A DNA stretch of 64,000 bases from Porphyromonadaceae bacterium W3.11 (GTDB taxonomy: Bacteria; Bacteroidota; Bacteroidia; Bacteroidales; Porphyromonadaceae), in NCBI GenBank assembly GCA_030434245.1, contig JAUISX010000005.1, positions 186,001-250,000 of the forward strand. Direction: 5' to 3'. Below, in pieces: positions 16,458 through 60,177 of this stretch. Numbering within the stretch: the stretch's first letter is position 1; every line of letters starts with the position of its first letter. The notes below the pieces were generated by a model that searched no databases, was not told the DNA's origin, and saw nothing but the letters and a program-made list of their open reading frames with translations. A program made the position numbers and the translations under genes.

Positions 16458-19400
16458 TGAAGCGGTTCAAATGTTTTTCTTGCAAAAATAAAAATCAGGA
16501 ACACAAAGAAATTAGTATAGAACAAGATGGAGATAAATCCAATACTATTATTGGAAATGTTACAGATAGTTTTGTCGGTTGTACATTCAACTACGACAAT
16601 ATAGAGCCACAATGGAAAGAAAGATTTGACACTTACGTAGCTAAACTACAAGAGTTTAAGCCTGAAACAGCGTTATCATTATTGCAAGAACTGGAGAAAA
16701 GTTTTACTGGAAGTAAGCAGCAACCCTCAAATGAATTATGTGCTCAAATATTATATCAAAAAGGAGTATGTAATCGTTTATTGGGGAACAAATATGAAAT
16801 GTGTCAATGTTTCATTTCTGCCTATGCAAAAAACAAGTTGAATGTTCAAATTAAAGAACAAGCAGCTCTAGCATATTTACAAATTGAAGATTTAGATAAG
16901 GCTGATGAACTTGCTAAAGAATTATTATATGACGATGAGTATAATATAGTTGCATGGTATATCATTTTTTTAAGAGCTAAGACATATGATTTTGGTTTTA
17001 TACCAAAATTTGTTCAACAAAAACAATTATTTCAACAGATGTTGTATAATTATTTCATTGAAAAAAATCTGTATGAAAGTATTTTGATAATGAAAGAGCT
17101 CGGAATGCTTCCTGATTTTAAAAGTTACAATCCTCAGGATGTAACAATAAACAACTTTAGTGAAAATATATTTTACATAAATTTATTGTTTGAAGAGTAT
17201 ATTCGTAAGTATCACTTCACTTTTCAGACATTAAACCAAGGGGATATTGACATTCTAAAAAAAATACAGGTACTTCTGAAGAAGATTTTAGCTAAGATTG
17301 AAGGGTCTGAAATAGAAAAGAAATATGGAGCATTATTTTTTTTTGATTCTTATATCAAATGTGTACTTACAAAAGAACAGGCCTATATTTCCAAAATGAG
17401 AAATCAATATCTTCAATTGGAAAGCAAGAACCACATTTTTGCTTTGCTTTGTGCAAATGTATTACAACTCAATGAACAAACAGATTTTGCTCTTGAAATC
17501 TTAAATGATTCTGAATTAAAAGAATCGAATATTCTTTACCTGAGGGCCTTCTGTTATCTAAAGAAAAACGATAAAATCCAATGTGGGATAGCAATACGAG
17601 ACTGGATAAACTCCGTTGAGAAAATTGATAACTATGTAGTTGATAACTATCTTGCTTCAATTTTTACATTAATGGGTATAGGTGAAACAGATGAATTAAA
17701 ACTATCTGATATTATCCAAAACAAGAAGTTTGAAAATCAGGAATTGAAAACTTTAATAGAAACGATTGTTAAATCACTGATTAGTGGAATATTGGATTCT
17801 ACGCAGATATCGACTTTGAGTGAATTAGCATCTACTATTCAACTACCGAATTTATTATTACACATTGCTTATACTTTCTATTATTTTAAAATGTATGAAT
17901 CTGCTGTAGATTTATATAAAAAGATTGTTGATAGCGGAGTAGAGAACCTTCATTTGTTCTTATACATTAAGTCTTTATATGCAGCCAAAAGAAATTCAAA
18001 GGAATTACTTATGTTATTAGAACACTGGAGATTAAATTTTTCATTTCAACCTGATCTCTTGAGAATTGAAGCGGATTTGTGTGTTATTATGCACAACTGG
18101 ATTAGATGCCTGAAAATTTGCAATACATTCTTAAATAAACATGAAAAAGATGAGACTTTTTTATGTCTAAAATTAAGGTGCTTAGATCTTATTAATGAGA
18201 ATTGGTGTGATAGTGAAATCAAATCAATGGCAAAAAGTTTTGAAGACTATCCCTTTTCTATTGATCAAAATATACCAATAGTGGCGAGTATATTGGTTGA
18301 TAGAGGTTGTTTTCTTGAAGGAATGGAGATTTTTTATAAGTATTCTGATAAAAGGACTGTCCGTTCTGCATATCTGTCTGCAACGTGTTTGTATTCGCAA
18401 AAATCACAAACTAAAGAGATTTTTAAAGAATTTGATGAAATTACAGATGGCTGTTTCGTGAAATATGAGTCTAATGGCGAAATCTATTTCTTTGAAATGG
18501 ATAAAAAAAATTCTGACAATTTCTATGGTGAGTTATTAGGGCACAAATTAGGTGATGTTATATCCATTAAAAAAATGTCAAGCAAAGATTATTCAATTCG
18601 CATATTGCGAATAATGGATAAGTATCTTTATTTACATGATAGAATCTTAGAAGAAGCAAAGCAACCTCTTTCGGGATTATCAATGGAAGCGTTCAACTTT
18701 ACTAGCTCTGACCCAGAAGAAATGAAGAAAGATTTAATATCTTTTTTTGGGGAACATGGCGAACAAGAGGAATTACTTAGAGAAACAGCAATAAATAAAT
18801 ACTATAACGAAGAATTATCTTTTACTGAAGTTATAATACAGGCATTTAGGAATGAGTATTTAGGTGGTTATACCAGTTTGATTTATCAGCACAACGGTAT
18901 CTTACTCATTCCTCTTTTATATTATGAATCATTACCTCAGCCTGTTAATACAACTAATTATGTTATCGACTTTTCTTCATTGGCTATTCTTTACCAGATA
19001 GCAAAAGAACACGACATTACATATCCTCACAAATTTCTAATTTCAGTTATTACCATAGATATGATAAAACAGAAATTGAGAATTCTTAAATCAGAACCAA
19101 AATCTGAATTATCAGTTGTCATAACAAACGAAGACATAATAAAATATCAGATTCCAGAAAATGCACATCAAAACAACATTATATATTTAGAAGGCCTTTT
19201 GAAATGGATAGAAAAGAACTGTGAAGCAGTTGTTTCTCCTAAATTTATTGATGTCAAGAGAAATATAGATATAGATGATAACAAAGGGATTGTTTTTGAC
19301 TATATTTTTAATACTTCGTTCGTTTGTGAAGATAAGCAAGCTATATTGTTGACAGATGACTTTTTTTATTTCAAATTCCATCTACCCGATATTAAGTCTT

Positions 19401-19843
19401 CAATGAGTACAGAGAAATATATAAAAAATATTTTAGGAGACGAACATCCAGCATTGTTTGAATTTATTAAAAATAAATATAGAGGATATACATTGACTAC
19501 AAAACAATTATTGGAAGAGTTTTATAAGAAAATAAATTCTAAAGATAATTACTATACCAATTGCATGGAAAATATTAGTATGGTTTCTGCTACGCCATGT
19601 GTAAAATTAGTGGATGCAATTACACAAACACAACTTGATATTAATCAACAAGAAATCGAGATTAAAAATGTATTTATTAATATATTAAAAAATGGTCCTT
19701 TAAGTAATCAGATTATTCAAGGGTTTCAGCAGTTGCTCTACTTAGAATTGAAATACTCACAAGAGAAGTTAGATTTTGTAGACCAATGTTTATATGATGT
19801 TTATCAAATGTTGGGAATCAGTATAAAAGATCTGAAGGATTAA
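16457..19843 (+). CDS. Large TPR / GreAB-C-like / PIN-like protein, probable conflict-system effector
   Basis: 1128 residues. About 18-46 is the Asn/Gly-rich motif shared with the upstream small protein. About 90-660 is all-helical with TPR-like spacing (AALAYLQIEDLDKADELAKELL; ILYLRAFCYLKKNDKIQCG). About 664-722 resembles the C-terminal domain of GreA/GreB (YGELLGHKLGDVISIKK; compare GRALLGKKVGDEVEV in Gre factors). About 833-1000 looks like a PIN nuclease: YVIDFSSLAIL with D838, and ILLTDDFF with D967/D968. A TPR-GreAB-C-PIN architecture has been reported, as I recall, in comparative genomic surveys of prokaryotic conflict systems. The unit is much more AT-rich than its neighbours, suggesting horizontal transfer. 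The domain calls are mine by eye and need a profile search. Confidence 0.7.
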   Translation: MKRFKCFSCKNKNQEHKEISIEQDGDKSNTIIGNVTDSFVGCTFNYDNIEPQWKERFDTYVAKLQEFKPETALSLLQELEKSFTGSKQQPSNELCAQILYQKGVCNRLLGNKYEMCQCFISAYAKNKLNVQIKEQAALAYLQIEDLDKADELAKELLYDDEYNIVAWYIIFLRAKTYDFGFIPKFVQQKQLFQQMLYNYFIEKNLYESILIMKELGMLPDFKSYNPQDVTINNFSENIFYINLLFEEYIRKYHFTFQTLNQGDIDILKKIQVLLKKILAKIEGSEIEKKYGALFFFDSYIKCVLTKEQAYISKMRNQYLQLESKNHIFALLCANVLQLNEQTDFALEILNDSELKESNILYLRAFCYLKKNDKIQCGIAIRDWINSVEKIDNYVVDNYLASIFTLMGIGETDELKLSDIIQNKKFENQELKTLIETIVKSLISGILDSTQISTLSELASTIQLPNLLLHIAYTFYYFKMYESAVDLYKKIVDSGVENLHLFLYIKSLYAAKRNSKELLMLLEHWRLNFSFQPDLLRIEADLCVIMHNWIRCLKICNTFLNKHEKDETFLCLKLRCLDLINENWCDSEIKSMAKSFEDYPFSIDQNIPIVASILVDRGCFLEGMEIFYKYSDKRTVRSAYLSATCLYSQKSQTKEIFKEFDEITDGCFVKYESNGEIYFFEMDKKNSDNFYGELLGHKLGDVISIKKMSSKDYSIRILRIMDKYLYLHDRILEEAKQPLSGLSMEAFNFTSSDPEEMKKDLISFFGEHGEQEELLRETAINKYYNEELSFTEVIIQAFRNEYLGGYTSLIYQHNGILLIPLLYYESLPQPVNTTNYVIDFSSLAILYQIAKEHDITYPHKFLISVITIDMIKQKLRILKSEPKSELSVVITNEDIIKYQIPENAHQNNIIYLEGLLKWIEKNCEAVVSPKFIDVKRNIDIDDNKGIVFDYIFNTSFVCEDKQAILLTDDFFYFKFHLPDIKSSMSTEKYIKNILGDEHPALFEFIKNKYRGYTLTTKQLLEEFYKKINSKDNYYTNCMENISMVSATPCVKLVDAITQTQLDINQQEIEIKNVFINILKNGPLSNQIIQGFQQLLYLELKYSQEKLDFVDQCLYDVYQMLGISIKDLKD

Positions 19844-30799: not shown

Positions 30800-32236
30800 G
30801 GTAGTGTCCCCAAAAGTGTGTACGGCAGAATGCGTCTCTGAAAAGCAAACCTACATATTTTTTCGCTTTGTTTTCCATAAACATTAAAGATAGACCAATA
30901 AAGAATTAAGGCAAGGCTGTCGTAGCACCGCGGAGACACCGCCTTGCCGTATTCTTTTAGGTTGATATCTTTGTGTTGGAAAATAAAGCACATTGTTGTT
31001 ATTTACTTTTCATTGTTCTTCCTAAGTCCAAGAGTTAGATCTCCTATTCTTTTCTTCAGATAGTTTGCATTGATTGCAATACTACCTATCAAGTGTAGAG
31101 CGGATTCTACGCTAGGTAATGCACATTTATATCGAGCCCCTTTCTTTACCTGTCTATTGAAGCGTTCTATCCAGTTAGTACTATGAATGTACTTGCGAAC
31201 ACTGACGTCGTATTTTAGGTATGTGAAGTAATACTCTATCCTCTGACCGTTAGCTATTTTTGTGAGAAAAGGATAGCTCTTACGCCATCTGAACGCAAAG
31301 TTTTTAAAGCTCTCTAGGCCATCTAAAGGTGAGCTTCTTGAGCCGTCTTTACTAAAGACCTCCTGTAGATCACTTGCGATGGCTGACTTATCTCGAGGGC
31401 GTATCTTTCGAGTTATTTCTCGCTGTAGATGCACCGTGCAGAGCTGGACTTCCACTTCTGTAAAGTGCTCACGTGCAACCTCTTCAATGTTATTCAACCC
31501 GTCTGAAATGATTAGTCCTACCACTTCGAGTCCTCGGCTTTTTAGATCCTCAAAAAACTCGCCCCAGATGCCGCTTCCCTCTGTTGGATTATTATAGACA
31601 CCCACGATGTCTCGACGTCCTTCGCTATCTAAACTCATCACTACAAAAAATGCCTCCTTGCTCACACTTTCTCCTCTCCGTACAGGAAGATATGTAGCAT
31701 CGATAACAAGTGCCTCTAAAGTCCTCGGTAGACGTCTTTGACGCCACTCTTCTACTGCTTCTTGGGTCGATAAGGAGAGACGATTGATTTGACTCGTACT
31801 ATAACGTTTACCATACAAACGCTCGAATACTCCAGAGATATCCTCCATCGTATTACCGCAGCTATATAGATAACCTGCTAGTTCTCCCATCTCTTTCTCT
31901 TGATCTTTGAGAACGCCTAAAATCAAGGGCATGAAGCCCTGCTGTCGAGTTCGGGGTACTCGTAATTCTAGCATATTACCACTCGCAAAGATGCGACGGG
32001 GGCGGTATCCATTGCTCACATCGCCACTATCTTCTTTATACAGTTCCCTCTCCCCTTGCATCGCTATTTCGATGATTAACTCCATTAAACGACCAACTCC
32101 ATTTGGCTCTGTCATCACGTTTGATAGAATTTCCTTAAATTGCATTTGTGTAAGTCTCATCTTCTTGTTTATCTTTTGTTTTTAACTTTTCAAAGATAAC
32201 ATTCTTGGGACTTACACACTTTTTGGGGACAGTATC
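30800..32236 (-). mobile_element. IS256-family insertion sequence, intact copy 1 (1437 bp)
   Basis: Flanked by the 8-bp direct repeat TTTGAATT (30792-30799 and 32237-32244). The ends are GGTAGTGTCCCCAAAAGTGT and, reading inward from the right, GATACTGTCCCCAAAAAGTG, imperfect inverted repeats of about 22 bp. Its length equals that of copy 2 minus the latter's 46-bp duplication. It contains one transposase gene and a tail of about 200 bp with a strong hairpin (30910-30948, arms GGCAAGGC / GCCTTGCC). It lies between the M3 peptidase and ppiD genes and breaks neither. Confidence 0.95.
31003..32160 (-). CDS. IS256-family (mutator type) transposase
   Basis: DDE transposase of 385 residues, full length for the family. 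Catalytic residues are D154 (VIDATY), D220 (IISDG) and E332 (NWIERFNRQ). The CTVHLQRE motif (241-248) is typical of IS256 transposases. It differs from copy 2 at one residue, V213 here against E213 there. Probably active. Confidence 0.95.
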   Translation of the reverse strand: MRLTQMQFKEILSNVMTEPNGVGRLMELIIEIAMQGERELYKEDSGDVSNGYRPRRIFASGNMLELRVPRTRQQGFMPLILGVLKDQEKEMGELAGYLYSCGNTMEDISGVFERLYGKRYSTSQINRLSLSTQEAVEEWRQRRLPRTLEALVIDATYLPVRRGESVSKEAFFVVMSLDSEGRRDIVGVYNNPTEGSGIWGEFFEDLKSRGLEVVGLIISDGLNNIEEVAREHFTEVEVQLCTVHLQREITRKIRPRDKSAIASDLQEVFSKDGSRSSPLDGLESFKNFAFRWRKSYPFLTKIANGQRIEYYFTYLKYDVSVRKYIHSTNWIERFNRQVKKGARYKCALPSVESALHLIGSIAINANYLKKRIGDLTLGLRKNNEK

Positions 32237-45601: not shown

Positions 45602-47329
45602 TTATGCTTTCCATATTTCTTTAGCTTTATTCAATAAGAATTTAGCTCTATTTTCTATTGTACTTTCGTTCCATTCATTCAATTCAAGATATGGTGCAAG
45701 TGTTTCAATTCCGCTCGAAAAGCGATTTAATCCCTGTTTGTTTCCGCTTCCTTTTTTCTTGGTTGGCCAATTGGCATCCCTGATCGATGTATTTGATGAT
45801 TGTGTTATTATTGCTAAGTTGCCTAATGTTTTTAATTTGAAATTTCTGTTCTCTTTGGCTTCTTTGGTTGGAACATTGGGCCATTTGTTTTCCCACTTTT
45901 TAGGCATTAAATGCTCCAGACTATACTTATTGATTCCTAAAAGTTGTGTTGACTGTTTATCTCTGTCTCTGATTTTAGATTCAATAAGATATATTATTCC
46001 TGATGCTTGTTTGTTAATAAGCACAGAATTATGAAACCCTTGTTTTAGTTCCGTATCACTTGGTAAATAGTTTACTTTATCATTTCTTGTTTCAAGAAAT
46101 TGAATAAACTGCTCCTTTGATAGGATTTTATTTGAGATAAGTCTGTCGGTGAATAGTTGATTGTAATTTTTTGTTGTTGCCTTAACAACCATTCTTCGCA
46201 TAACATAACTTTCAATAAATGCAAATAATTCATTTTGTTGATTTCTGTCATCTACATTTTTGAGAATGTAAAGTGTATATGGAATTAGAGTAGAAGTCTC
46301 AAGTCCAAAAATTATTGCATTTATTCGTTCGATTCCACTATTATTAGTAAGTTCATTGTATATAATATCATAGTCAAAATTGTTTTTGAACAAAATCGCG
46401 TATTCTCTAATTTCATCAAGGATTTCGGTTTTATTTAGTTGATAATCTCTTATAAAACGTTTATACGATTCAAAGAGGTTTTCAACTTTTGAGAACTCAA
46501 TTTTGTCGTCATTTTTTACTTTTAATTCTGATTCCTGAATTTTAATTTGGAGATATGAATAGAAGAAAAGGTCTATAAATGTTCTTTTTGAACGACCCGT
46601 CGTGATTTCTCTGTCCCAATAAATTTTTGTTTCATCATCTTTTTCAAATATTATTCTCCAATATTTCTCATAATTATCAATTTCGTCGCGGTTGAAGAAA
46701 TAATTTTTGAGCAATTCAGCCGTAGTCAGACGAACTCCAAGAGAGTTTATTGTATCAAATATTTGTTGTTCATCTTCTTCATACCCTAGGTCAATTCCAA
46801 CAAATAAAATATTGTCTAAAATATTGAAGAAGTCTAATGAATAAGATAAGTCTTCTTCAGTTATATTTTCTTTAAAATAATTATATGCAGAGAGAATATT
46901 GTCGTTTTCTGAAATATCTTCAAAAATTTGGAGTGATTCAAGATTTACAACTTTATTAAAGGAATCTTGATCGTTATGGTTGTGAAGCAAAATGATTGAT
47001 TTATCTCTTTGCTTTTTAAAAGTTTCCGTAAAATCAGAGTCGGAATTGTTTTTTAGGCACAATACTTTTAAAAATATGTTTAATGTTGTAAGCCTTTGTT
47101 GACCGTCAATTACAGTCAATATAGAATCTTTGTTTGAAGCAGTTTCTTGTTGTTTAAGAATAACTGAGCCTAAAAAGTATGGTTTTTTGGTTATTGAAAC
47201 CATACGCATATCTTCTAAAAATCGTTGCCATTGCTCTGTATTCCAAACGTAAGCTCTTTGGAAAAATGGAATCTCTAAATTTCGACCTCTATTGAATATA
47301 TCTCTAATTGTTCGTTTACCTGCTTCCAT
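45602..47329 (-). CDS. GmrSD-type DUF262/DUF1524 protein, putative type IV restriction enzyme
   Basis: Single-chain GmrSD homologue; characterised relatives cleave glucosylated or otherwise modified phage DNA. I choose the Met at 47329 (MEAGKRTIRDIFNRG; 575 residues); the frame is open 25 codons further but is low-complexity there. DUF262 (about 5-230) holds FFQRAYVW and the nucleotide-binding DGQQR motif (75-79). DUF1524 (about 430-560) holds SLEHLMPKKW with H473 and TLGNLAIITQSSN, the His-Me/HNH nuclease core. AT-rich gene in an IS-littered zone. Confidence 0.85.
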   Translation of the reverse strand: MEAGKRTIRDIFNRGRNLEIPFFQRAYVWNTEQWQRFLEDMRMVSITKKPYFLGSVILKQQETASNKDSILTVIDGQQRLTTLNIFLKVLCLKNNSDSDFTETFKKQRDKSIILLHNHNDQDSFNKVVNLESLQIFEDISENDNILSAYNYFKENITEEDLSYSLDFFNILDNILFVGIDLGYEEDEQQIFDTINSLGVRLTTAELLKNYFFNRDEIDNYEKYWRIIFEKDDETKIYWDREITTGRSKRTFIDLFFYSYLQIKIQESELKVKNDDKIEFSKVENLFESYKRFIRDYQLNKTEILDEIREYAILFKNNFDYDIIYNELTNNSGIERINAIIFGLETSTLIPYTLYILKNVDDRNQQNELFAFIESYVMRRMVVKATTKNYNQLFTDRLISNKILSKEQFIQFLETRNDKVNYLPSDTELKQGFHNSVLINKQASGIIYLIESKIRDRDKQSTQLLGINKYSLEHLMPKKWENKWPNVPTKEAKENRNFKLKTLGNLAIITQSSNTSIRDANWPTKKKGSGNKQGLNRFSSGIETLAPYLELNEWNESTIENRAKFLLNKAKEIWKA

Positions 47330-48282
47330 ATTTTTATTGTATTTTTTATTGTATCCTTTTATTATAGTCTTGTTTGTCTTTGAATTTATATATGTATATA
47401 TCAACAGGAAATATCCTATTGTGGTATATATTTTAAATTGTTAGCTAATGTACAATTGCAAATATAACTTATTTTTTATTAATTTTCTTGTAATATTAAC
47501 TGTTAATCATTAAAAGTAATATTTTTGTTTGTGCGATATTGCTAAGAATAATTAAGGAGATATAAATTACGAGTTTTCCGTGTTTGCTGAGTGAAAGTAT
47601 AATTAATAGTAATAACTTAAAATGTTAAAAAACTATAAAACCATTTGAGCTGAAAATAGTATTTATTTGCTTTGAATTTTACTTTATTATTTAGTAAAAT
47701 GTATTGAACTATGATGATAGTGGATGATTTTTTTTCGCCATCTACCAACTTAATACTTTGTACAGAGTTCCTCTTCTTTTGTTATTGCTAAATATAACGG
47801 GAGATATTATAGATTTGAAACATTTCGCCATCATTTATTTATTACTTTTGAGGGAGTATTTATGCTGGATACATGTGATACATACGGCTTAATACATTAG
47901 CTTTAAAAAAGTGAGTGTAATGATTTCGTTTGGACGGAGGAGATGTGAAAAAAGCATACACCTTTTTTCTAGCATAATACATTCGAAATAAAATATATTC
48001 TTATGGTGTTCAAGGTTAAAAAAGTTTCGTTGTTGACTTTATTAATTACCATGTGACTCTAATTGCTATTATTAGTATGGACCTTTTTTTATGATAAGAA
48101 TTTTTTTGTGTTTAGAATTGAGATATTTAAAATGATAATTTAGATCCGGATTAAGAAGCCTTAAATGCCATTGTTTTTCAGAGTTTCATCTATGATGGCT
48201 ACTATTTTATTCTGGCCTAAATAAATAATGAAAAAAATATCTAGTTTTATTATGAATATTGTTAGAAAACTATTATCTTTGT
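47330..48282. other. AT-rich gene-free region
   Basis: About 950 bp with no ORF of interest and no recognised RNA family. TATCTTTG at 48274-48281 fits the -7 element of a promoter immediately before the cobalamin riboswitch, but no -33 TTTG is at the normal spacing. The sequence TTCGCCATC occurs twice (47738 and 47824). It may be decayed accessory DNA. Confidence 0.4.
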
Positions 48283-48884: not shown

Positions 48885-50216
48885 ATGAAAACAGATGAAA
48901 TTATAAAAGACTTACAGCAAAAACACCCAGGGGAGTCGGAATATTTAGAAGCCGTAAGAGAGGTCTTGACTTCAATAGAGGATGTTTATAACCAGCATCC
49001 AGAGTTTGAGAGGAATAAAATTATTGAGCGATTGGTGGAGCCAGATCGTATAATTATCTTTAGAGTTCCTTGGGTAGATGATAATGAAGAGGTGCAGGTG
49101 AATATTGGATACAGGGTTCAATTCAATAATGCCATCGGCCCATACAAAGGAGGTATTCGTTTTCAACCCAATGTGAATCTATCTATTATAAAGTTTTTAG
49201 GTTTTGAACAAATTTTCAAAAATGCCTTGACTACACTGCCACTGGGCGGAGCAAAGGGCGGAAGTGACTTTAATCCAAGCGGTAGATCTGATACAGAGAT
49301 TATGCGTTTTTGCCAAGCATACATGTTAGAGCTTTATCGACATTTAGGTCCTAATACGGATGTTCCAGCTGGTGATATGGGCGTTGGTGGACGTGAAGTA
49401 GGCTATATGTATGGCATGTATCGTAAGCTTAGGAATGAAACTACAGGTGCATTTACAGGTAAGGGTCTTTCATATGGAGGTTCTATTTTAAGACCGGAAG
49501 CTACTGGTTATGGTGCTATATACTTTCTGAATCAGTTACTTGAAACTCATGGGCACTCTCTTAAGGGTAAGACTGTAGCAGTCTCTGGTTTTGGTCAAGT
49601 TGCGTGGGGTGCAGTCAAAAAAGCTGTCGAGTTAGGAGCCAAGGTTATTTGTATTTCAGGCCCTGATGGATATGTCTATGATAGTGAGGGGCTCTCTGGG
49701 GAGAAGATAGATTACATGTTGGAGTTACGTAATAGTGGCAAAAATATAGTTAAGCCATACGCAGATAAGTATGGTGTAGAGTACTACGCTGGTAAGAAGC
49801 CATGGGAGCAGAAAGCGGATATTTACCTGCCATGTGCTACCCAGAATGAACTCAATCTTGATGATGCGGAGGCTATCATTTCAAACGGTGCTTTGGCTGT
49901 ATGTGAAGTGTCAAATATGGGCTGTACATTGGATGCTACTACCTATTTTGTTCAAAACAAGTTGCTGTATGGACCATGTAAGGCTGTTAATGCAGGTGGA
50001 GTTGCATGTTCAGGATTGGAAATGTCCCAAAACTCATCTCACTTCGCTTGGACCGCGGAGCAGGTTGATGAAGCGTTACATAGAATTATGAGTAATATTC
50101 ATGAGCAGTGTGTACTTCATGGTCAGGAAGGTGACTACATTAATTATGTAAAGGGTGCAAATATTGCTGGATTTATGAAGGTTGCTGAAGCGATGCTAGA
50201 GCAAGGTATAGTATAA
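48885..50216 (+). CDS. gdhA: Glutamate dehydrogenase (hexameric type)
   Basis: Reversible oxidative deamination of glutamate to 2-oxoglutarate, central to amino-acid fermentation. The 443 residues match the small hexameric class. Substrate lysines are K88 (GPYKGGIRF) and K124 (GGAKGGSDF), followed by PAGDMGVGGREVGY. The nucleotide-binding fold has GFGQVAWGAVKKA. NAD against NADP preference cannot be settled by eye. Next to the transhydrogenase operon, so both contribute to nicotinamide redox balance. Confidence 0.95.
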   Translation: MKTDEIIKDLQQKHPGESEYLEAVREVLTSIEDVYNQHPEFERNKIIERLVEPDRIIIFRVPWVDDNEEVQVNIGYRVQFNNAIGPYKGGIRFQPNVNLSIIKFLGFEQIFKNALTTLPLGGAKGGSDFNPSGRSDTEIMRFCQAYMLELYRHLGPNTDVPAGDMGVGGREVGYMYGMYRKLRNETTGAFTGKGLSYGGSILRPEATGYGAIYFLNQLLETHGHSLKGKTVAVSGFGQVAWGAVKKAVELGAKVICISGPDGYVYDSEGLSGEKIDYMLELRNSGKNIVKPYADKYGVEYYAGKKPWEQKADIYLPCATQNELNLDDAEAIISNGALAVCEVSNMGCTLDATTYFVQNKLLYGPCKAVNAGGVACSGLEMSQNSSHFAWTAEQVDEALHRIMSNIHEQCVLHGQEGDYINYVKGANIAGFMKVAEAMLEQGIV

Positions 50217-50752: not shown

Positions 50753-51910
50753 ATGATAATAGCTATTCCAAGGGAGATTATGCATGGCGAAAGTCGTGTT
50801 TCGGCTACTCCAGAGACTGTGAAAAAGTTTATTGAAGATGGAGCCACTGTTTTAGTTGAGGCAGGTGCTGGTGAGCCATCATTTCATCATGATGATGACT
50901 ATAAGGAAGCAGGGGCTACACTACTTACAGATACCGCAGACCTTTTTCAGAGAGCGGATGTGATTCTAAAGGTTAAAGAGCCTCTATTTAATGAGAAACT
51001 AGGAAAGCACGAAGTCGAACTGATGCACGAGGGGCAAGTATTGATTACTTTTATCCACCCAGCATCACCAGTAAATCATGAGATGGTCAGGATGCTCGCT
51101 AAGCAAGGTGTCATAGGCCTGACACTTGATGGTGTGCCACGTATCTCACGTGCTCAAAATCTTGATGCCTTGACTTCTATGAGTACATGTGCTGGCTATA
51201 AGGGTATCTTGATGGCTGCTAACGATCTTGCTAGCTTCGTTCCACAAATGTTTACAGCTGTTGGTCAGATCAAGCCAGCTAAGGTTATGGTCATTGGAGT
51301 AGGGGTAGCTGGACTTCAGGCCCTTGCTACAGCTAGACGTCTAGGTGCCATTACGTATGCGGCAGACATTCGTCCTGCCGCTGCAGAACAGGCTACTTCT
51401 CTAGGAGCTAAAGTTGTAGAGACTGGTGTCGCTCCCGAATTAGCTATTGCTGAAGGTGGATATGCTAAGCACTTACCAGCTGATGTGTTGGCAAAAGAGC
51501 GTGAATTGCTTCTCCCAACTATTAAGGAGATGGATATCGTCTTCTGTAGTGCACTAGTGCCAGGAAAGATAGCTCCAACTATCATCACTGAAGAGATGGT
51601 TAAGCAGATGAAGCCTGGATCGGTCATTGTAGATATTTCTATTGACCAAGGTGGTAACTGTGAGATCACACCTCCAGGAGATAAAGAACGTAAGCACGGT
51701 GTGATGATTAATGGTATTAAGAATATACCTGGATTATTACCAAATAGCTCTACATGGATGTTCTCACAGAATATTTATCACCTTGTGAAGTATTTGACTA
51801 AGGATGGTAAGATCCAGTTAGATATGACAGACGAAATATGCCAGAAGATCTTAGTTACTCGTGATCATGAGATCGTTCACGAAGGAACACTTGAAGCAAT
51901 GGCTAAGTAA
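50753..51910 (+). CDS. pntAA: NAD(P) transhydrogenase subunit alpha part 1 (domain I)
   Basis: Soluble NAD(H)-binding domain of the proton-translocating transhydrogenase, which exchanges hydride between NAD(H) and NADP(H) at the inner membrane. The 385 residues begin IAIPREIMHGESRVSATP, as in the AlaDH/PNT family. The RQD loop is present (R133, Q135, D138 in ISRAQNLDAL), and the Rossmann motif is GVGVAG (182-187) followed by AADIRP. The split alpha subunit is of Rhodospirillum type. First gene of the operon. Confidence 0.95.
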   Translation: MIIAIPREIMHGESRVSATPETVKKFIEDGATVLVEAGAGEPSFHHDDDYKEAGATLLTDTADLFQRADVILKVKEPLFNEKLGKHEVELMHEGQVLITFIHPASPVNHEMVRMLAKQGVIGLTLDGVPRISRAQNLDALTSMSTCAGYKGILMAANDLASFVPQMFTAVGQIKPAKVMVIGVGVAGLQALATARRLGAITYAADIRPAAAEQATSLGAKVVETGVAPELAIAEGGYAKHLPADVLAKERELLLPTIKEMDIVFCSALVPGKIAPTIITEEMVKQMKPGSVIVDISIDQGGNCEITPPGDKERKHGVMINGIKNIPGLLPNSSTWMFSQNIYHLVKYLTKDGKIQLDMTDEICQKILVTRDHEIVHEGTLEAMAK

Positions 51911-51987: not shown

Positions 51988-52335
51988 ATGACTCATCCAC
52001 TTGTATTAGTATTGATATTTATAGTCTCCTCGATAGTAGGATACTTTGTTATTCGGAAGATTCCGAGCTTGCTTCACACCCCACTAATGTCGGGCATGAA
52101 TGCTCTTTCTGGAATTACAGTGATAGGAGCATTAATTGTGTTGATTGATGCACTTTCACTTCGTAAGATATTTAATGAAAGTATCTTTGGACCTACCCCT
52201 GCTTTAGGTGTCGCAATCATCATTGCAGGCATCGCAATCATTTTTGCTATGGTTAATATAGTAGGAGGATTTGGCGTTACTGAGAGAATGCTGAAAATGT
52301 TTAAGAGCAAAAAGCAGAAAGGAGGAGTTAAGTAA
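51988..52335 (+). CDS. pntAB: NAD(P) transhydrogenase subunit alpha part 2 (membrane part)
   Basis: Short membrane subunit completing the alpha side of domain II. The 115 residues have about four hydrophobic segments. SGMNALSGITVIGALIVL is the conserved PntAB block. The stop overlaps the pntB start by one base (TAATG), implying coupled translation. Confidence 0.93.
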   Translation: MTHPLVLVLIFIVSSIVGYFVIRKIPSLLHTPLMSGMNALSGITVIGALIVLIDALSLRKIFNESIFGPTPALGVAIIIAGIAIIFAMVNIVGGFGVTERMLKMFKSKKQKGGVK

Positions 52336-55300
52336 TGGAGTTATTTATGAATATATTGATTCCTGTACTTGTCGTACTTGGACTGTGGTTAATGAGTCGT
52401 GTTCCTAGTGCTGTTAAAGGAAATCGCCTGAGTATATTGGCGATGTTCTTGGCAGTAGTATTTGCTCTTTGGGCAGCTGATATGGTCTCTATATTGGTAG
52501 CACTATTATTCATTGTAATAGGTGGATTGATAGGTCTAATGCTGGCTAAAAAAGTTACCATGATACAGATGCCACAAACTGTAGGGCTATTAAATGGTCT
52601 TGGTGGAGGTGCATCCGCACTGGTGGGTATCGTTTCATTGATGGGCATAATGAGTCCCGAGGTATTTGCAGAGAGAGTAGCTATTTCACTATTTTCAAGC
52701 CATCATTCAGGAGTTCTTCTGACTTCTTTCGAGGTTGCAACTGCGGTATTAGCTATCATGGTTGGTATGCTAACCCTGACAGGAAGTTTAGTCGCTGCTG
52801 GTAAGCTACATAAAGTTCTTCCTCAAAAGCCAGTAGTGTATAAGAAGCACTCCATGATGATTGGTATCCTTTTGGGTCTATTACTAGCTATCTTTGTATG
52901 GGCGACATGGTTCGTCACTATGAATACCCTCACAGGCGTAATTTTGAGTGCAGTGATTGTCTCCGCTTTATTTGGGTGGCTGTTTGCTATTCGAGTTGGA
53001 GGTGCAGATATGCCTATTACCATTTCTCTACTCAACTCACTTAGTGGTGTAGCTGGTAGTATTGCTGGTATGGCTATTGGTAATATTATGCTGGTAGCAA
53101 TTGGAGGTATAGTGGGTGCTTCAGGCCTATTGCTAACACAGATTATGTGTAAAGCTATGAATCGTAATTTGCTAGATATCCTATTAGGGAAAACTTCTGC
53201 ACCATCTAGCAAGAAGGATAAAGGTACACCTTTATCTCAACCTACTGCACAAAAGGCTGTTGAAGTAAAGCAAAGCTCATTAGCCGACGTTATGAAAGCT
53301 GCAAAGTCTGTGATTATCGTTCCAGGATATGGAATGGCCCTCGCACAGGCACAGCATCAAGTCAAGCAACTTGGAGATGCCTTTGAGAAGAATGGAGCAA
53401 AAGTCCGTTACGCTATTCACCCAGTAGCTGGACGTATGCCAGGTCACATGAATGTCCTGCTCGCCGAAGCCGATGTGGATTATGAGGAGCTGTATGAGAT
53501 GGAGGCAATCAATGATGACTTCAAGGATACCGACTTAGTAGTTGTCATTGGAGCCAATGACGTCCTTAACCCAGCTGCTCGGGATGCCGAAGGTACACCA
53601 ATATATGGTATGCCGGTGCTGAATGTAGATCAAGCTAAGCATGTCGTTATTTGTAACTTCGACCTCAATCCAGGTTATGCAGGTGTGCCTAATCCCCTGT
53701 ATGATAGAGCTAATGGCGTTACTATCAAGCTAGGTGATGCCAAAGAAACGGTGTCAAATCTTATTACTGAATTACAAAGCCATAAGAGCTCTTCTGCTGA
53801 TGTAACCGTCCCTGTTAATAGTCTAGGCAGTACACTAAAGTCAGCTAAGTCAGTGATCATCGTCCCTGGATATGGAATGGCACTTGCACAGGCACAGCAT
53901 CAAGTCAAGCAGCTAGGGGATGCCTTTGAGAAGAATGGAGCAAAGGTCCGTTATGCTATTCATCCTGTAGCTGGACGTATGCCAGGCCATATGAATGTCC
54001 TGCTCGCCGAAGCCGATGTGGATTATGAGGAGCTGTATGAGATGGAGGCAATCAATGATGACTTTAAGGATACCGACTTAGTGGTCGTCATTGGTGCCAA
54101 TGACGTGCTTAACCCAGCTGCGCGTAATGCCGAAGGCACTCCAATATATGGTATGCCTGTGCTGAATGTAGATCAAGCTAAGCATGTCGTTATCTGTAAC
54201 TTTGACCTCAATCCAGGTTATGCCGGTGTGCCTAACCCTCTTTATGAGAAGTCAGAAGGCGTAACTCTTAAGCTAGGAGATGCTAAAGAATCTGTGTCAA
54301 ATCTTATTTCAGAGCTTCAAAATACTGATACTGTTTCAAGCTCTTCTAATAAGACTAATGAGTTATCAGCTACAATGAAGGCTGCTAAGTCAGTAATCAT
54401 TGTGCCAGGATATGGTATGGCATTAGCACAGGCTCAGCATCAAGTCAAACAGCTAGGGGATGCCTTTGAGAAGAATGGAGCAAAGGTCCGTTACGCTATT
54501 CACCCTGTAGCTGGACGTATGCCAGGTCATATGAATGTGCTGCTCGCCGAAGCCGATGTGGATTATGAGGAGCTGTATGAGATGGAGGCAATCAATGATG
54601 ACTTTAAGGATACCGACTTAGTAGTTGTCATTGGTGCCAATGACGTCCTTAACCCAGCTGCCCGCGATGCCGAAGGTACACCAATATATGGTATGCCTGT
54701 GCTAAATGTAGATCAAGCTAAGCATGTCGTTATTTGTAACTTCGACCTCAATCCAGGTTATGCCGGTGTACCTAACCCACTTTATGAGAAGTCAGAAGGT
54801 GTTACTCTTAAGCTAGGAGATGCTAAGGAAAGTGTGGCAGAACTTATTTCTGACCTTCAAAGTACAGCCTCCGATTCTAATAATGGAGGGCAAGAGGCTG
54901 ACCTTGGTACGGTTATTAAGTCAGCTAAGTCAGTGATCATTGTTCCTGGATATGGTATGGCATTAGCACAGGCACAGCATCAAGTTAAGCAACTAGGTGA
55001 TGCCTTAGAAAAGAATGGAGCAAAGGTCCGTTATGCTATTCACCCTGTAGCTGGACGTATGCCAGGCCATATGAATGTCCTGCTAGCCGAGGCCGATGTG
55101 GATTATGAGGAGCTGTATGAGATGGAGGCAATCAATGATGACTTTAAGGCTACCGACTTAGTGGTTGTCATTGGTGCCAATGACGTCCTTAATCCAGCAG
55201 CACGTGATGCCGAAGGCACTCCTATATATGGTATGCCAGTGCTGAATGTGGATCAAGCTAAGTATGTTATTATTTGTAACTATGATCTAAACCCTGGTTA

Positions 55301-55403
55301 TGCTGGTGTGCCTAACCCTCTTTATGAAAGAAGTGAAGGGGTAACATTGCTGCTCGGTGATGCCAAGGAGTCATTAGACAAACTTCTATCAGAAGTAAGA
55401 TGA
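52335..55403 (+). CDS. pntB: NAD(P) transhydrogenase beta subunit with four tandem domain III copies
   Basis: Membrane subunit with the proton channel and NADP(H) domain. The family is normally about 450-480 residues; this one is 1022. Residues 1 to about 290 are the membrane domain, with about nine helices and the conserved LLNGLGGGASALVG and LLNSLSGVAGSIAGMA blocks. Then come four near-identical 159-residue domain III units at about 323-481, 504-662, 684-842 and 864-1022, joined by Ser/Asn-rich linkers of about 21 residues. Each keeps VPGYGMALAQAQ, IHPVAGRMPGHMNVLLAEA, VVIGANDVLNPAA and GYAGVPNPLY. The reading frame is uninterrupted and the copies differ at silent sites, so an assembly error is unlikely. 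A terminator follows. Confidence 0.95.
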   Translation: MELFMNILIPVLVVLGLWLMSRVPSAVKGNRLSILAMFLAVVFALWAADMVSILVALLFIVIGGLIGLMLAKKVTMIQMPQTVGLLNGLGGGASALVGIVSLMGIMSPEVFAERVAISLFSSHHSGVLLTSFEVATAVLAIMVGMLTLTGSLVAAGKLHKVLPQKPVVYKKHSMMIGILLGLLLAIFVWATWFVTMNTLTGVILSAVIVSALFGWLFAIRVGGADMPITISLLNSLSGVAGSIAGMAIGNIMLVAIGGIVGASGLLLTQIMCKAMNRNLLDILLGKTSAPSSKKDKGTPLSQPTAQKAVEVKQSSLADVMKAAKSVIIVPGYGMALAQAQHQVKQLGDAFEKNGAKVRYAIHPVAGRMPGHMNVLLAEADVDYEELYEMEAINDDFKDTDLVVVIGANDVLNPAARDAEGTPIYGMPVLNVDQAKHVVICNFDLNPGYAGVPNPLYDRANGVTIKLGDAKETVSNLITELQSHKSSSADVTVPVNSLGSTLKSAKSVIIVPGYGMALAQAQHQVKQLGDAFEKNGAKVRYAIHPVAGRMPGHMNVLLAEADVDYEELYEMEAINDDFKDTDLVVVIGANDVLNPAARNAEGTPIYGMPVLNVDQAKHVVICNFDLNPGYAGVPNPLYEKSEGVTLKLGDAKESVSNLISELQNTDTVSSSSNKTNELSATMKAAKSVIIVPGYGMALAQAQHQVKQLGDAFEKNGAKVRYAIHPVAGRMPGHMNVLLAEADVDYEELYEMEAINDDFKDTDLVVVIGANDVLNPAARDAEGTPIYGMPVLNVDQAKHVVICNFDLNPGYAGVPNPLYEKSEGVTLKLGDAKESVAELISDLQSTASDSNNGGQEADLGTVIKSAKSVIIVPGYGMALAQAQHQVKQLGDALEKNGAKVRYAIHPVAGRMPGHMNVLLAEADVDYEELYEMEAINDDFKATDLVVVIGANDVLNPAARDAEGTPIYGMPVLNVDQAKYVIICNYDLNPGYAGVPNPLYERSEGVTLLLGDAKESLDKLLSEVR
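53301..53777 (+). repeat. PntB domain III unit 1
   Basis: 159 codons from AKSVIIVPGYGM to LITELQ. It starts 543 nt before the matching point of unit 2. Distinguishing residues: LYDRANGVTIKL near the end. Confidence 0.95.
53844..54320 (+). repeat. PntB domain III unit 2
   Basis: 159 codons, 540 nt before unit 3. Differs from unit 1 mainly at AARNAEG and LYEKSEGVTLKL. The linker before it (SHKSSSADVTVPVNSLGSTL) is unlike the other linkers. Confidence 0.95.
54384..54860 (+). repeat. PntB domain III unit 3
   Basis: 159 codons, 540 nt before unit 4. Nearly the same as unit 2 but with AARDAEG and the ending ESVAELISDLQ. Confidence 0.95.
54924..55400 (+). repeat. PntB domain III unit 4 (C-terminal)
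   Basis: 159 codons up to the stop. The most divergent unit: DALEKN, FKATDLV, AKYVIICNYDLN and LLLGDAKESLDKLLSEVR. It may be the ancestral C-terminus from which the others were duplicated. Confidence 0.95.
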
Positions 55404-55427: not shown

Positions 55428-55474
55428 AAAGAGTGTTCACTAAAATTACCGTTTAGCGAACACTCTTTGTTTTA
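55428..55474 (+). terminator. Terminator of the pnt operon
   Basis: Arms AAAGAGTGTTC-CTAAA / TTTAG-GAACACTCTTT with one internal mismatch and a 7-nt loop, followed by GTTTT. Confidence 0.92.
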
Positions 55475-55944: not shown

Positions 55945-56532
55945 TCAGAGAGAGTCACGTCCGTCCATTTCCTTTTCTAGCTCTTTACTTGGGATCAGCC
56001 ACCAGCATGCCAGTCCGAAGTAGGCAATGATGGAACCCCATACGGATACAAACGCCAAGGGTATAGATATGAAGTAGATAATGATAGACCACTTTTCTTT
56101 CTTTCCGCCGCTATGCAAACTTCGCAACGGGAAATCACTATCGTGACATTTGATTAGAGCCATTTCAAGTAATCTAAATGAAATTGCTGACATAAATAGT
56201 ACAAATCCATATACTGCCACAGGGAGAGCTGAAAGGTGATTTTGTCCCACCCAGCTTGTACTAAAAGGAATAAGTGACAACCAGAATAACAGATGGAGAT
56301 TAGCCCAAAGAATTTTACCATCTATTCGCTCGGTCACTTGCATGATATGATGGTGATTAATCCAGTATATCCCGATGTATATGTAACTCAATAAATAACT
56401 CATAAATACTGGTATGACCGGGTATAAGGCTGACAAAGTAACATCCTCTGGCGTTTTCATAGAAAGCACCATGATGGTTATAATGATGGCCAGTACACCA
56501 TCGCTAAAGGCTTCTAATCTTCCCTTATTCAT
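55945..56532 (-). CDS. TMEM175 family membrane protein (bacterial K+ channel-like)
   Basis: 195 residues with six hydrophobic segments. RLEAFSDGVLAIIITIMVL (5-23) carries the FSDGVLAI selectivity-filter motif of TMEM175 (formerly DUF1211) channels, which conduct potassium in characterised bacteria. IYWINHHHIM is the second family block. Single gene; role in this organism unknown. Confidence 0.88.
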   Translation of the reverse strand: MNKGRLEAFSDGVLAIIITIMVLSMKTPEDVTLSALYPVIPVFMSYLLSYIYIGIYWINHHHIMQVTERIDGKILWANLHLLFWLSLIPFSTSWVGQNHLSALPVAVYGFVLFMSAISFRLLEMALIKCHDSDFPLRSLHSGGKKEKWSIIIYFISIPLAFVSVWGSIIAYFGLACWWLIPSKELEKEMDGRDSL

Positions 56533-56877: not shown

Positions 56878-58404
56878 TTAATTTTTATAGTTATCAATCA
56901 ACCCTTTTATCTTCTTGATGAGTTTATCCAATGGAATGTCCGCACGTTGACTCATCATCTGAATGGTTGCTTTAGGTAGAATAACTTTAGCAATCGGAGT
57001 GTTGAGCATTTTGAACTTTTCGTCAATCTTTGGTAAGTCATGAATCAACTGAGGGTAGCGATTCAGTAGCTCTTTCAGCTTTGTCTTAGCCGTGACATCG
57101 TCACTTATTTCACTTTGAGAATTACTCGTAGAGGGATCTACTTGGTCTTGTTTCTTTTGTTCTTTTTGCTCCTCATCCCATGTTAGTAAGGTCCTCGAGT
57201 CTTCAACTTCTCTGATACGCGTACAGTCCTGCATCATTTCCAGTACTCCTCTGAATGTTCCATGCTCGTCTCTGACTGCTACGTATTTGATATAAATGAA
57301 AATCCCTGGTTTATTGATCCAAAAGTCCGTGCTATCTTTTTCTCCAGTCCTGAACTTTTCAATGATTTCCTCTACTAGGTGGACACTCTTAGGGGGATGA
57401 CAATTTCGGACCTCTCTACCAATGACTCCCTTACTACGTGGAAAAACTCTATGTGGTGTGTCTGTATAAAACTTAACGATCTCATTCTCATCAACGTAGG
57501 AGATATCTACGGGTAAATGGCGAAAGAGAAGGTTGATTTGCTCTAAGGTTAATTGACCTTCTGAGACATTTAATACTTCGTTGGATGTCGTTTTCCCTCC
57601 CAATCCATACTTTTGGAGTAAAGAGGATAGCTCATCTACAAATCCTTCTTTATCTTCCTTATCTGTTTTTGGGGATTGAATATATTCAGGCATATCTATC
57701 ATGAAGAAGCCAATCTCTCTATCTCCAGATTTCATCTCCTCAAATTCATTTTCGGATATGAGTTTTAGAGATGTAGGATATAGGATTAATTCTTCTTTAG
57801 CCATAAGATCACGGAGATCTATAGTCATCTCACGATAAGCGAAACGAAATCCTGATAAGTCATCATTCTGAAGAGCTTGCATCGCTGAATTCATCTCCTC
57901 CTTTATCGCGTCATCGTAGGGCCACATCGTAGTGGTGGGTCTGTCAAAACCTTTCTTTTCTAATATAGAATAGAGTTGATTTTGTTTACGAGAAAAATGG
58001 ACTTTATAGAGCATGATTTTCTCCATTAGTTCCAACCACTGATTTTTAATAAACTCCTGATCCCAAATGCTCTCTCCTGTAGCAAGAAGTATTTCAAGTT
58101 CAATGTTTTCTCTTTTGTATGCATCAATTGGATGACCAAAAGGGAGCTCTATTTGAGTCTCAGGGATGAGTCCATCGAAAATGTCTAGCATTGTTCTGAC
58201 GTTTTCATTTCGGCACTCATCGGGGTTATTTTCCTTAAGAAGTTGTTCTGACGCAGCATATTCTTCAGGCGAGATTTTCCCGACTTCCTCTTTCATTCTT
58301 TTCTTGGCGTCTTCTAAAGAAATATGACCATTGTCAAATTCTTTTTTTATTGCCAGCATTCTAGTTAGTTTGTCAAGATCGACATTCTCAAATATTTTAT
58401 TCAT
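56878..58404 (-). CDS. DUF438 / hemerythrin-like / PAS domain protein
   Basis: 508 residues. DUF438 (about 10-80: LAIKKEFDNGHISLEDAKKR) is followed by a hemerythrin-like helical region (about 95-235) with HPIDAYKREN, KVHFSRKQNQLY and EELILYP. A PAS_10-type domain (about 285-410: VDISYVDENEIVKFYTDTPH) comes next, and the C-terminal 80 residues resemble DUF1858 (RYPQLIHDLPKIDEKFKML). Homologues are thought to sense oxygen, nitric oxide or redox via a di-iron or haem centre. Transcribed alone. Confidence 0.85.
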   Translation of the reverse strand: MNKIFENVDLDKLTRMLAIKKEFDNGHISLEDAKKRMKEEVGKISPEEYAASEQLLKENNPDECRNENVRTMLDIFDGLIPETQIELPFGHPIDAYKRENIELEILLATGESIWDQEFIKNQWLELMEKIMLYKVHFSRKQNQLYSILEKKGFDRPTTTMWPYDDAIKEEMNSAMQALQNDDLSGFRFAYREMTIDLRDLMAKEELILYPTSLKLISENEFEEMKSGDREIGFFMIDMPEYIQSPKTDKEDKEGFVDELSSLLQKYGLGGKTTSNEVLNVSEGQLTLEQINLLFRHLPVDISYVDENEIVKFYTDTPHRVFPRSKGVIGREVRNCHPPKSVHLVEEIIEKFRTGEKDSTDFWINKPGIFIYIKYVAVRDEHGTFRGVLEMMQDCTRIREVEDSRTLLTWDEEQKEQKKQDQVDPSTSNSQSEISDDVTAKTKLKELLNRYPQLIHDLPKIDEKFKMLNTPIAKVILPKATIQMMSQRADIPLDKLIKKIKGLIDNYKN

Positions 58405-58719: not shown

Positions 58720-59877
58720 ATGAGACTTACACAAATGCAATTTAAGGAAATTCTATCAAACGTGATGACAGAGCCAAATGGAGTTGGTCGTTTAATGGAG
58801 TTAATCATCGAAATAGCGATGCAAGGGGAGAGGGAACTGTATAAAGAAGATAGTGGCGATGTGAGCAATGGATACCGCCCCCGTCGCATCTTTGCGAGTG
58901 GTAATATGCTAGAATTACGAGTACCCCGAACTCGACAGCAGGGCTTCATGCCCTTGATTTTAGGCGTTCTCAAAGATCAAGAGAAAGAGATGGGAGAACT
59001 AGCAGGTTATCTATATAGCTGCGGTAATACGATGGAGGATATCTCTGGAGTATTCGAGCGTTTGTATGGTAAACGTTATAGTACGAGTCAAATCAATCGT
59101 CTCTCCTTATCGACCCAAGAAGCAGTAGAAGAGTGGCGTCAAAGACGTCTACCGAGGACTTTAGAGGCACTTGTTATCGATGCTACATATCTTCCTGTAC
59201 GGAGAGGAGAAAGTGTGAGCAAGGAGGCATTTTTTGTAGTGATGAGTTTAGATAGCGAAGGACGTCGAGACATCGTGGGTGTCTATAATAATCCAACAGA
59301 GGGAAGCGGCATCTGGGGCGAGTTTTTTGAGGATCTAAAAAGCCGAGGACTCGAAGAGGTAGGACTAATCATTTCAGACGGGTTGAATAACATTGAAGAG
59401 GTTGCACGTGAGCACTTTACAGAAGTGGAAGTCCAGCTCTGCACGGTGCATCTACAGCGAGAAATAACTCGAAAGATACGCCCTCGAGATAAGTCAGCCA
59501 TCGCAAGTGATCTACAGGAGGTCTTTAGTAAAGACGGCTCAAGAAGCTCACCTTTAGATGGCCTAGAGAGCTTTAAAAACTTTGCGTTCAGATGGCGTAA
59601 GAGCTATCCTTTTCTCACAAAAATAGCTAACGGTCAGAGGATAGAGTATTACTTCACATACCTAAAATACGACGTCAGTGTTCGCAAGTACATTCATAGT
59701 ACTAACTGGATAGAACGCTTCAATAGACAGGTAAAGAAAGGGGCTCGATATAAATGTGCATTACCTAGCGTAGAATCCGCTCTACACTTGATAGGTAGTA
59801 TTGCAATCAATGCAAACTATCTGAAGAAAAGAATAGGAGATCTAACTCTTGGACTTAGGAAGAACAATGAAAAGTAA
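58720..59877 (+). CDS. IS256-family (mutator type) transposase, copy 2
   Basis: 385 residues, one difference from copy 1 (E213 for V213). All catalytic residues are present (D154, D220, E332). Probably functional. The 5' leader from the element end to the ATG is 76 bp. Confidence 0.95.
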   Translation: MRLTQMQFKEILSNVMTEPNGVGRLMELIIEIAMQGERELYKEDSGDVSNGYRPRRIFASGNMLELRVPRTRQQGFMPLILGVLKDQEKEMGELAGYLYSCGNTMEDISGVFERLYGKRYSTSQINRLSLSTQEAVEEWRQRRLPRTLEALVIDATYLPVRRGESVSKEAFFVVMSLDSEGRRDIVGVYNNPTEGSGIWGEFFEDLKSRGLEEVGLIISDGLNNIEEVAREHFTEVEVQLCTVHLQREITRKIRPRDKSAIASDLQEVFSKDGSRSSPLDGLESFKNFAFRWRKSYPFLTKIANGQRIEYYFTYLKYDVSVRKYIHSTNWIERFNRQVKKGARYKCALPSVESALHLIGSIAINANYLKKRIGDLTLGLRKNNEK

Positions 59878-60034: not shown

Positions 60035-60126
60035 CTTTTCAGAGACGCATTCTGCCGTACACACTTTTGGGGACACTACCCTTTTCAGAGACGCATTCTG
60101 CCGTACACACTTTTGGGGACACTACC
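60035..60126 (+). repeat. 46-bp perfect tandem duplication of the IS right end
   Basis: Unit from CTTTTCAGAGACGCATTCTG to ACACTACC, present at 60035-60080 and 60081-60126 with no mismatch. Both copies contain the terminal ACACACTTTTGGGGACA motif. The target duplication lies outside the second copy. Confidence 0.97.
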
Positions 60127-60177
60127 CACAGTCACGTTTATCCCAGTGGATAGGAGCTCTTAATTATTCTTTCAATA

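Follow-up and report, generated by a model that had tools for sequence, protein, structure and literature searches.

Why would a membrane transhydrogenase carry four copies of the domain that ferries its nucleotide? The question is posed by the PntB (beta subunit) gene at 52335-55403 of a 64,000-nucleotide stretch of DNA, here called the window, from Porphyromonadaceae bacterium W3.11 (GenBank assembly GCA_030434245.1, contig JAUISX010000005.1, positions 186,001 to 250,000). Its product departs from the usual PntB architecture, one nucleotide-binding domain III (dIII) after the membrane domain (domain II, dII), in that four dIII units are present. By combining repeat, selection and structure analyses with surveys of other genomes, we find that these units are under purifying selection, that all four have exchanged the KRS motif of the NADPH site for N-[FY]-D, and that tandem dIII recur in several phyla. 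We tentatively propose that the array would act as a set of tethered shuttles serving one proton channel.

Four domain III units in one open frame

The gene is the third of a PntAA–PntAB–PntB operon and adjoins the alpha-subunit genes for domain I and the four-transmembrane-helix (4-TM) subunit, as expected of a PntB. The parts of the operon, in window coordinates, are listed below (aa, amino acids; pLDDT, predicted local distance difference test score; HMM, hidden Markov model).

50753-51910, plus strand: PntAA, NAD(H)-binding domain I, 385 aa; PF05222 and PF01262 matches
51988-52335, plus strand: PntAB, 4-TM subunit, 115 aa; PF12769, E = 5.6e-28
52335-55403, plus strand: PntB, membrane domain and four dIII units, 1022 aa; one open frame, ATG start
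52335-53186, plus strand: membrane domain II of PntB, about aa 1-284; ten helices of at least 13 residues in AlphaFold2
53193-53273, plus strand: linker from dII to dIII unit 1, aa 287-313; low pLDDT
53271-53783, plus strand: dIII unit 1; custom-built HMM
53655-53663, plus strand: N-F-D replacing KRS, unit 1
53781-53819, plus strand: linker between dIII units 1 and 2; low pLDDT
53814-54326, plus strand: dIII unit 2; custom-built HMM
54198-54206, plus strand: N-F-D replacing KRS, unit 2
54324-54350, plus strand: linker between dIII units 2 and 3; low pLDDT
54354-54866, plus strand: dIII unit 3; custom-built HMM, AlphaFold2 model matches transhydrogenase dIII
54738-54746, plus strand: N-F-D replacing KRS, unit 3
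54864-54896, plus strand: linker between dIII units 3 and 4; low pLDDT
54894-55400, plus strand: dIII unit 4, most divergent of the four; custom-built HMM
55278-55286, plus strand: N-Y-D replacing KRS, unit 4
55428-55468, listed on the minus strand: 17-bp hairpin directly 3' of the PntB stop, possible terminator; consensus scan alone

The stop codon of PntAB and the start codon of PntB overlap as TAATG. PntB reaches 1302.3 bits against PF02233 (cut-off 31.7), in four match stretches, and 960.4 bits against NF006974 (cut-off 689); PntAA, at 374 bits, falls narrowly below the cut-off of 383 of the NCBIfam PntA model, which was built for the undivided alpha subunit. The PntB locus is single in the 2.63-Mb genome of 9 contigs and lies inside its contig rather than at an edge. 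Terminator-type hairpin sites number 4 in the region against 3.3 in shuffles.

The open reading frame, a repeat search, PF02233 and the HMM agree on four tandem dIII in a frame that is open throughout, as a preliminary description made from the sequence had claimed. Its repeat period of 540-543 nt likewise agrees with the start-to-start spacing of the four direct copies (543, 540 and 540 nt; units 180-181 aa apart), and its unit length of 159 residues gives way to the 169-171 aa delimited by the HMM. The copies are 89-92% identical in nucleotides to the reference copy (over 300 nt). Between pairs of units, over 149 aligned codons, synonymous divergence (dS) is 0.32-0.70 and non-synonymous divergence (dN) 0.006-0.045, with a dN/dS of 0.018-0.082: every dIII unit of this PntB is under purifying selection. 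Each pair of units differs by 27-47 synonymous changes, a divergence that mis-assembly of one copy would not produce. Purifying selection on all units and their recurrence in relatives (below) uphold the early view of a selected architecture rather than an error.

In the full-length AlphaFold2 model of PntB (pLDDT 79, predicted TM-score 0.45), the low-confidence segments are the four linkers and one membrane loop (aa 122-127). The linkers had been said to differ, and they do vary in sequence and length, at low pLDDT. Across tandem proteins, 70 inter-unit linkers are 8-28 residues long and rich in A, S, T, E and P, and such linkers are probably flexible.

The model of unit 3 (pLDDT 85.5) matches transhydrogenase dIII with a Foldseek E value of 9.7e-22 and a VIA Z of 25.1 (1.9 Å over 167 residues). 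The next-nearest fold is the NAD-binding Sir2 group, at Z 12.4-13.6, a match without residue pairs.

Replacement of the KRS motif

The preliminary description held that all nucleotide-binding motifs were kept. This stands for the GYGMA fingerprint and the equivalent of R350 and fails at the KRS motif, which reads NFD, NFD, NFD and NYD in the four units. The KRS motif is one that we take to bind the 2'-phosphate. In Escherichia coli PntB, one structural account gives K424-R425-S426 as the 'KRS motif' of the NADPH site and places R350 and Y315 at the diphosphate (PMC9529548). With N-[FY]-D at E. coli positions 424-426, this PntB is not classed as KR-type (KRS or KRG); we refer to it and its like as N-type or N-x-D.

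At the K424 equivalent all 158 N-type units have N, and at the S426 equivalent 154 of them have D, in a set that is partly circular, as loci of the named collection were fetched by a pattern demanding N-[FY]-D whereas those of the genus, family, order, class and other centre surveys were not. KR-type rows retain K at the 424 equivalent, the KR set of this count containing two misfiled N-type units (L146_u2, seen directly, and a second deduced from 49 against 47). The motif-independent surveys found the replacement too, with the variants N-L-D, N-R-D, N-M-D, N-K-D and N-W-D, one N-M-N and one N-S-S. A three-unit PntB of the N-type clade (L275, genome G1064) has N-S-S in all its units.

The equivalents of R350 and Y315 are invariant in an alignment of 29 units, and the GYGMA fingerprint is retained. 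In a membrane-domain tree of 97 rows, built by a quick method, N-type rows fall on one side of a branch with an SH-aLRT value of 100. Without KRS, the nucleotide would probably be bound less tightly or in a different way. A DNA pattern for N-[FY]-D gave no match in viral contigs.

Tandem domain III in other genomes

The architecture had been put forward as one without a described example. Among papers on the transhydrogenase and its mechanism, judged by titles and abstract openings, we found no description of tandem dIII or of N-x-D, so that part stands for the literature searched. Uniqueness to this genome, in turn, is rejected: tandem dIII of 2-4 units run through Porphyromonadaceae, where a check for long PntB in Bacteroidales had been suggested, and through other Bacteroidales and several phyla.

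Within the genus (12 genomes, including this one), PntB matches occur in 11, G007 having none. The eight intact genes all have at least two units (four units in 4 genomes, three in 2 and two in 2), and three further genes are fragmented, mostly at contig ends. In the family Porphyromonadaceae, 31 of 38 genomes have matches; the seven without a PntB match (G007, G013, G022, G024, G028, G032 and G034) include G028, which is assembled as a single contig, and occasional loss of the operon therefore seems likely. A sample of the order gave matches in 103 of 393 genomes, eight of them at 58% identity or more to the query. Seven of these eight are tandem with 2-4 units (our genome, G035, G012, G151, G333, G342 and G240) and G005 is split over contigs; the other 95, at up to 45% identity, show no second dIII in their listed matches.

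Farther afield, 137 of 296 genomes of a phylum sample exceed the cut-off, ours being the only tandem one. The cut-off is likewise exceeded by 16 of 391 in a class sample around an Oscillospiraceae genome (two tandem, including the centre), 88 of 246 around Mobiluncus (none tandem), 81 of 247 around Treponema putidum (five, including the centre) and 20 of 247 around Desulfovibrio MES5 (three, including the centre). With the five centres excluded, 7 of the 337 genomes with a PF02233 (PNTB) match over the cut-off have tandem dIII, a figure from which broken assemblies may hide further cases; tandem dIII are thus uncommon among transhydrogenases overall.

A scan of named genomes for DNA of the form N-[FY]-D..PGYAGV.NP returned at least 120 stretches, in at least 80 loci. 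Among the matches listed, tandem dIII occur in Desulfovibrio sp. MES5 (four units), Candidatus Riflebacteria (four), Anaerococcus (four), Clostridiaceae (three), Anaerolineaceae (three, whole gene), Treponema putidum (two), Petrimonas (two), Parabacteroides (two, in two genomes) and Haloplasmataceae (two in one, at least four in another whose gene is cut), and many Prevotella-like and clostridial genomes have a single dIII. Whole-chromosome contigs are among the carriers: G002 with four units, and Treponema putidum NZ_CP009228 and Petrimonas AP018040 with two each.

Are tandem dIII tied to the N-x-D motif? Among the survey proteins typed by motif, with the centres again excluded, tandem dIII occur in 6 of 25 N-type proteins and in 1 of 100 of the KR-type (Fisher p = 2e-4), these being loci returned or fetched rather than a random draw, with related rows counted separately. 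We had considered that only the N-x-D subfamily might have tandem dIII; this is refuted by a two-dIII PntB of the KRS type (L363, genome G1799, from the phylum of Desulfovibrio MES5), which leaves an enrichment. With KRS in both of its units, it shows that tandem dIII do not need N-x-D, and tandem dIII have arisen outside the N-x-D clade too, to which this protein is assigned as an outsider by its motif, not by a place on the tree.

Turnover of the units

On the membrane-domain tree, the passage between single and tandem dIII takes 14 changes, at least seven of them forced by starred branches, and 11 when five doubtful single rows are removed (L074, with a split frame, and L120, L125, L129 and L145, at a locus end). 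In a quick tree of the units, 26 of 31 tandem proteins have all their units in a single group. The exceptions are this PntB, L053, L054, L144 and L232, and in the four of them that have at least three units, all but the last still cluster. This tree fits repeated amplification or homogenization upstream of what would be an older last unit.

We scored retention on 67 columns, chosen for at least 95% conservation across 50 single-unit N-type dIII; in these dIII themselves, retention is 99.2%. Tandem N-type units keep 98.4% (37 first units), 98.8% (35 middle) and 98.9% (37 last), and with retention so nearly equal, internal units are as a rule not decaying. The exception is the first unit of a two-unit PntB (L223, genome G433), which is degenerate: 78% of columns are kept, identity to its neighbour is 57%, and N-L-D is followed by PGRAGV. 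The same genome also carries a KRG-type PntB (L230). In another genome (G1787), a frame of 203 aa (L365) matches dIII over about 117 residues, part of the domain; it lies away from the main PntB and is possibly a stray dIII remnant.

Channel and domain I

The remaining residues are consistent with a proton-translocating nicotinamide nucleotide transhydrogenase. The channel and coupling positions (E. coli numbering) are kept in N-type rows, with D213 in 87 of 87, N222 in 84 of 87, R265 in 86 of 87 and S139 in 87 of 87, and all four have equivalents in the membrane domain of this PntB; the H91 equivalent is N in 83 of 87 N-type and 44 of 47 KR-type rows. Altered proton-channel residues are therefore rejected as an explanation, since the two types mostly agree at the positions tested.

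The domain I alignment covers 28 of the 47 N-type sources and 31 of the 46 KR-type loci tried, the remainder having failed a motif filter that required the glycine-rich loop and an R..D..S pattern. D205 and R207 of the NAD(H) site are kept in all 28 aligned N-type sequences, a conservation partly built in where the filter demands those two motifs, and a domain I switched to NADP is accordingly unsupported. Full-length N-type matches from across phyla are 61-87% identical to this PntAA in domain I, compared with 36-39% for ten KR-type loci, nine of them from the same order.

What the four units may do

The reading that we favour, at a probability of roughly 0.45, is that four equivalent dIII shuttles tethered to one proton channel would increase the number of loaded dIII in cases where turnover is limited by loading, release or the swivel. 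In the mechanism of known enzymes, dIII loads or releases nucleotide while it lies face-down against the membrane domain; when it detaches, the nucleotide is trapped, and the domain swings up to domain I, where hydride is transferred (PMC9529548). With four tethered units, one could be docked on the channel as a loaded dIII waits for, or visits, domain I, and turnover would be less limited by the loading, release or swivel of a single domain. The effect would be greatest in the N-x-D subfamily, where KRS loss should weaken or alter NADP(H) binding, since weaker binding makes such a limitation more likely; recombination between repeats would keep the unit number labile. We infer that all four units would work in turn and that the array would raise turnover.

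The preliminary description had offered raised local concentration, or parallel docking and exchange, by the four dIII, and both remain plausible. It had also offered a changed proton/hydride stoichiometry, which is unsupported: the chain has a single membrane domain, whose channel residues are the usual ones, and each dIII would presumably dock on it in turn.

Several observations weigh against the tethered-shuttle proposal. If KRS loss created the need for extra units, the KRS-type protein with two dIII is unexplained. Tandem dIII are not required, as 50 of 88 N-type proteins have one dIII (three of them cut by a locus end, and L074, counted as single, being a split frame followed by three further units). 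Near-neutral amplification is also compatible with how often the unit number changes.

The same data would admit a broader and more tentative proposal, that of an undescribed second class of proton-coupled transhydrogenase, widespread in anaerobe lineages, whose N-x-D dIII would recognize the dinucleotide differently and which would have been made multi-carrier repeatedly by tandem duplication of dIII.

The serious rival to tethered shuttles, somewhat unlikely in our judgement, is near-neutral repeat dynamics, in which copies come and go by recombination and the cell tolerates the surplus units, using any of them alike and gaining little or nothing from their number. It would explain why the unit number ranges from 2 to 4 among eight intact genes of one genus, why units group by protein in 26 of 31 cases and why single and tandem states change 11-14 times on the dII tree. 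It sits less easily with the two or more units in all eight of those genes, the strong purifying selection on every unit of this PntB, the conserved columns of internal units and the retention of extra 180-aa domains in a genome of 2.63 Mb.

Also unlikely is a change of cofactor, such that the N-x-D dIII would use mainly NAD(H) or another dinucleotide; the enzyme would then be a proton-coupled hydride shuttle serving another partner, and the dIII units its tethered carriers. It is suggested by the near-invariant N (158/158) and D (154/158), which place an acidic residue in a motif that we take to bind the 2'-phosphate, by the retention of R350, Y315 and GYGMA, and by a domain I distinct from that of the ten KR-type loci (36-39% against 61-87% within the subfamily). 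The next-nearest fold, moreover, is the Sir2 group (Z 12.4-13.6), and human sirtuins have N-x-[DE] near the adenosine ribose. Asn286 is named among the SIRT2 contacts of an ADP-ribose analogue (PMC3923677). On the other side, a local hhalign alignment with 20 Porphyromonadaceae sirtuins spans query residues 57-112, short of the motif, and those of them inspected have I-D-P-K rather than I-N-x-[DE] where the residues would probably lie. Domain I, for its part, keeps D205 and R207 of the NAD(H) site, and if its proton coupling is intact, an NAD/NAD enzyme would do no more than leak protons. This argues for NADP(H) bound through other contacts, or for another dinucleotide.

We regard as quite improbable a nucleotide reservoir, in which the extra dIII would store NADP(H) in occluded form close to the membrane, buffering the pool instead of accelerating the cycle. 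A detached dIII occludes its nucleotide (PMC9529548), and there would be four units per chain and eight per dimer. The enzyme is, however, probably too scarce relative to the cellular pool, and KRS loss should weaken, not tighten, binding.

An assembly or sequencing artefact, to which the breaking of many relatives' assemblies by the repeats, with several genes in pieces at contig edges, might point, has a negligible chance and is rejected, given the synonymous divergence between units, the position of PntB inside its contig and the tandem dIII in whole-chromosome contigs of other species.

Neighbouring genes

On the same strand and 536 nt upstream of PntAA lies a glutamate dehydrogenase gene (48885-50216, plus strand), whose product passes the NCBIfam cut-offs of a glutamate dehydrogenase subfamily and of one NADP-specific glutamate dehydrogenase model and fails another NADP-specific one. 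We rejected it as a conserved partner, with a tblastn match in 4 of 141 loci (two genomes), many loci being too short to show one. Just downstream of PntB, a TMEM175-like potassium channel gene lies on the opposite strand (55948-56532, minus), and a protein encoded at 56881-58404 (minus) joins hemerythrin-like, PAS and DUF1858 domains and is possibly a redox or oxygen sensor. A Mutator-family (PF00872) transposase is present in two copies (31003-32160, minus; 58720-59877, plus), the element around both being 99.93% identical over 1438 nt, and a 46-nt stretch is repeated in tandem beside the second copy (60035-60127). Elsewhere in the window are a GmrSD-type restriction endonuclease (45605-47404, minus; PF03235 and PF07510) and a 1128-aa protein (16457-19840, plus) with the PIN domain of the TPR-GreAB-C-PIN system (PF20698).

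Relation to known systems and significance

Repeated carriers on flexible linkers that serve one catalytic core occur as the tandem lipoyl domains of dehydrogenase E2 and the tandem acyl carrier proteins of polyunsaturated fatty acid (PUFA) synthases. The dIII array would work alike, although the proteins are unrelated, the dIII carrier binding its dinucleotide non-covalently and acting as the gate of a proton channel. Among transhydrogenases, ours resembles the three-subunit enzymes of Rhodospirillum rubrum and Thermus thermophilus, E. coli PntAB and mitochondrial NNT in domain order, channel residues and the NAD(H)-site residues of domain I, as well as in the dIII fold (Z 25.1 to the R. rubrum domain), GYGMA and the R350 and Y315 equivalents. 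It and its tandem relatives differ from them in having 2-4 dIII per chain instead of one, N-x-D instead of KRS, and a domain I at 36-39% identity to that of the ten KR-type loci. Single-dIII N-x-D PntB of Prevotella-like, Paludibacteraceae, clostridial and spirochaete genomes share the motif and the side of the tree (spirochaete rows being typed by motif alone) and have one dIII, whereas the KRS-type PntB of G1799 shares the tandem dIII and a flexible-looking linker and differs by KRS in both units.

Transhydrogenase genes PGN_1120, PGN_1122 and pntB of Porphyromonas gingivalis are reported to be up-regulated in biofilm (PMC5378342). For the mechanism of the family, two papers bear on a central question: how dIII swivels from the membrane domain to domain I and back, and if the two halves of the dimer strictly alternate in this (PMC5026163, PMC9529548). 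Natural enzymes with one, two, three and four similar dIII per channel offer a direct test, in which turnover rising with unit number would point to loading or swivel as the limiting step. The N-x-D motif also questions the assumed NADP(H) use of annotated NAD(P) transhydrogenases in Porphyromonas, Prevotella, Treponema and rumen clostridia, and the cofactor question that it raises bears on redox models of these anaerobes.

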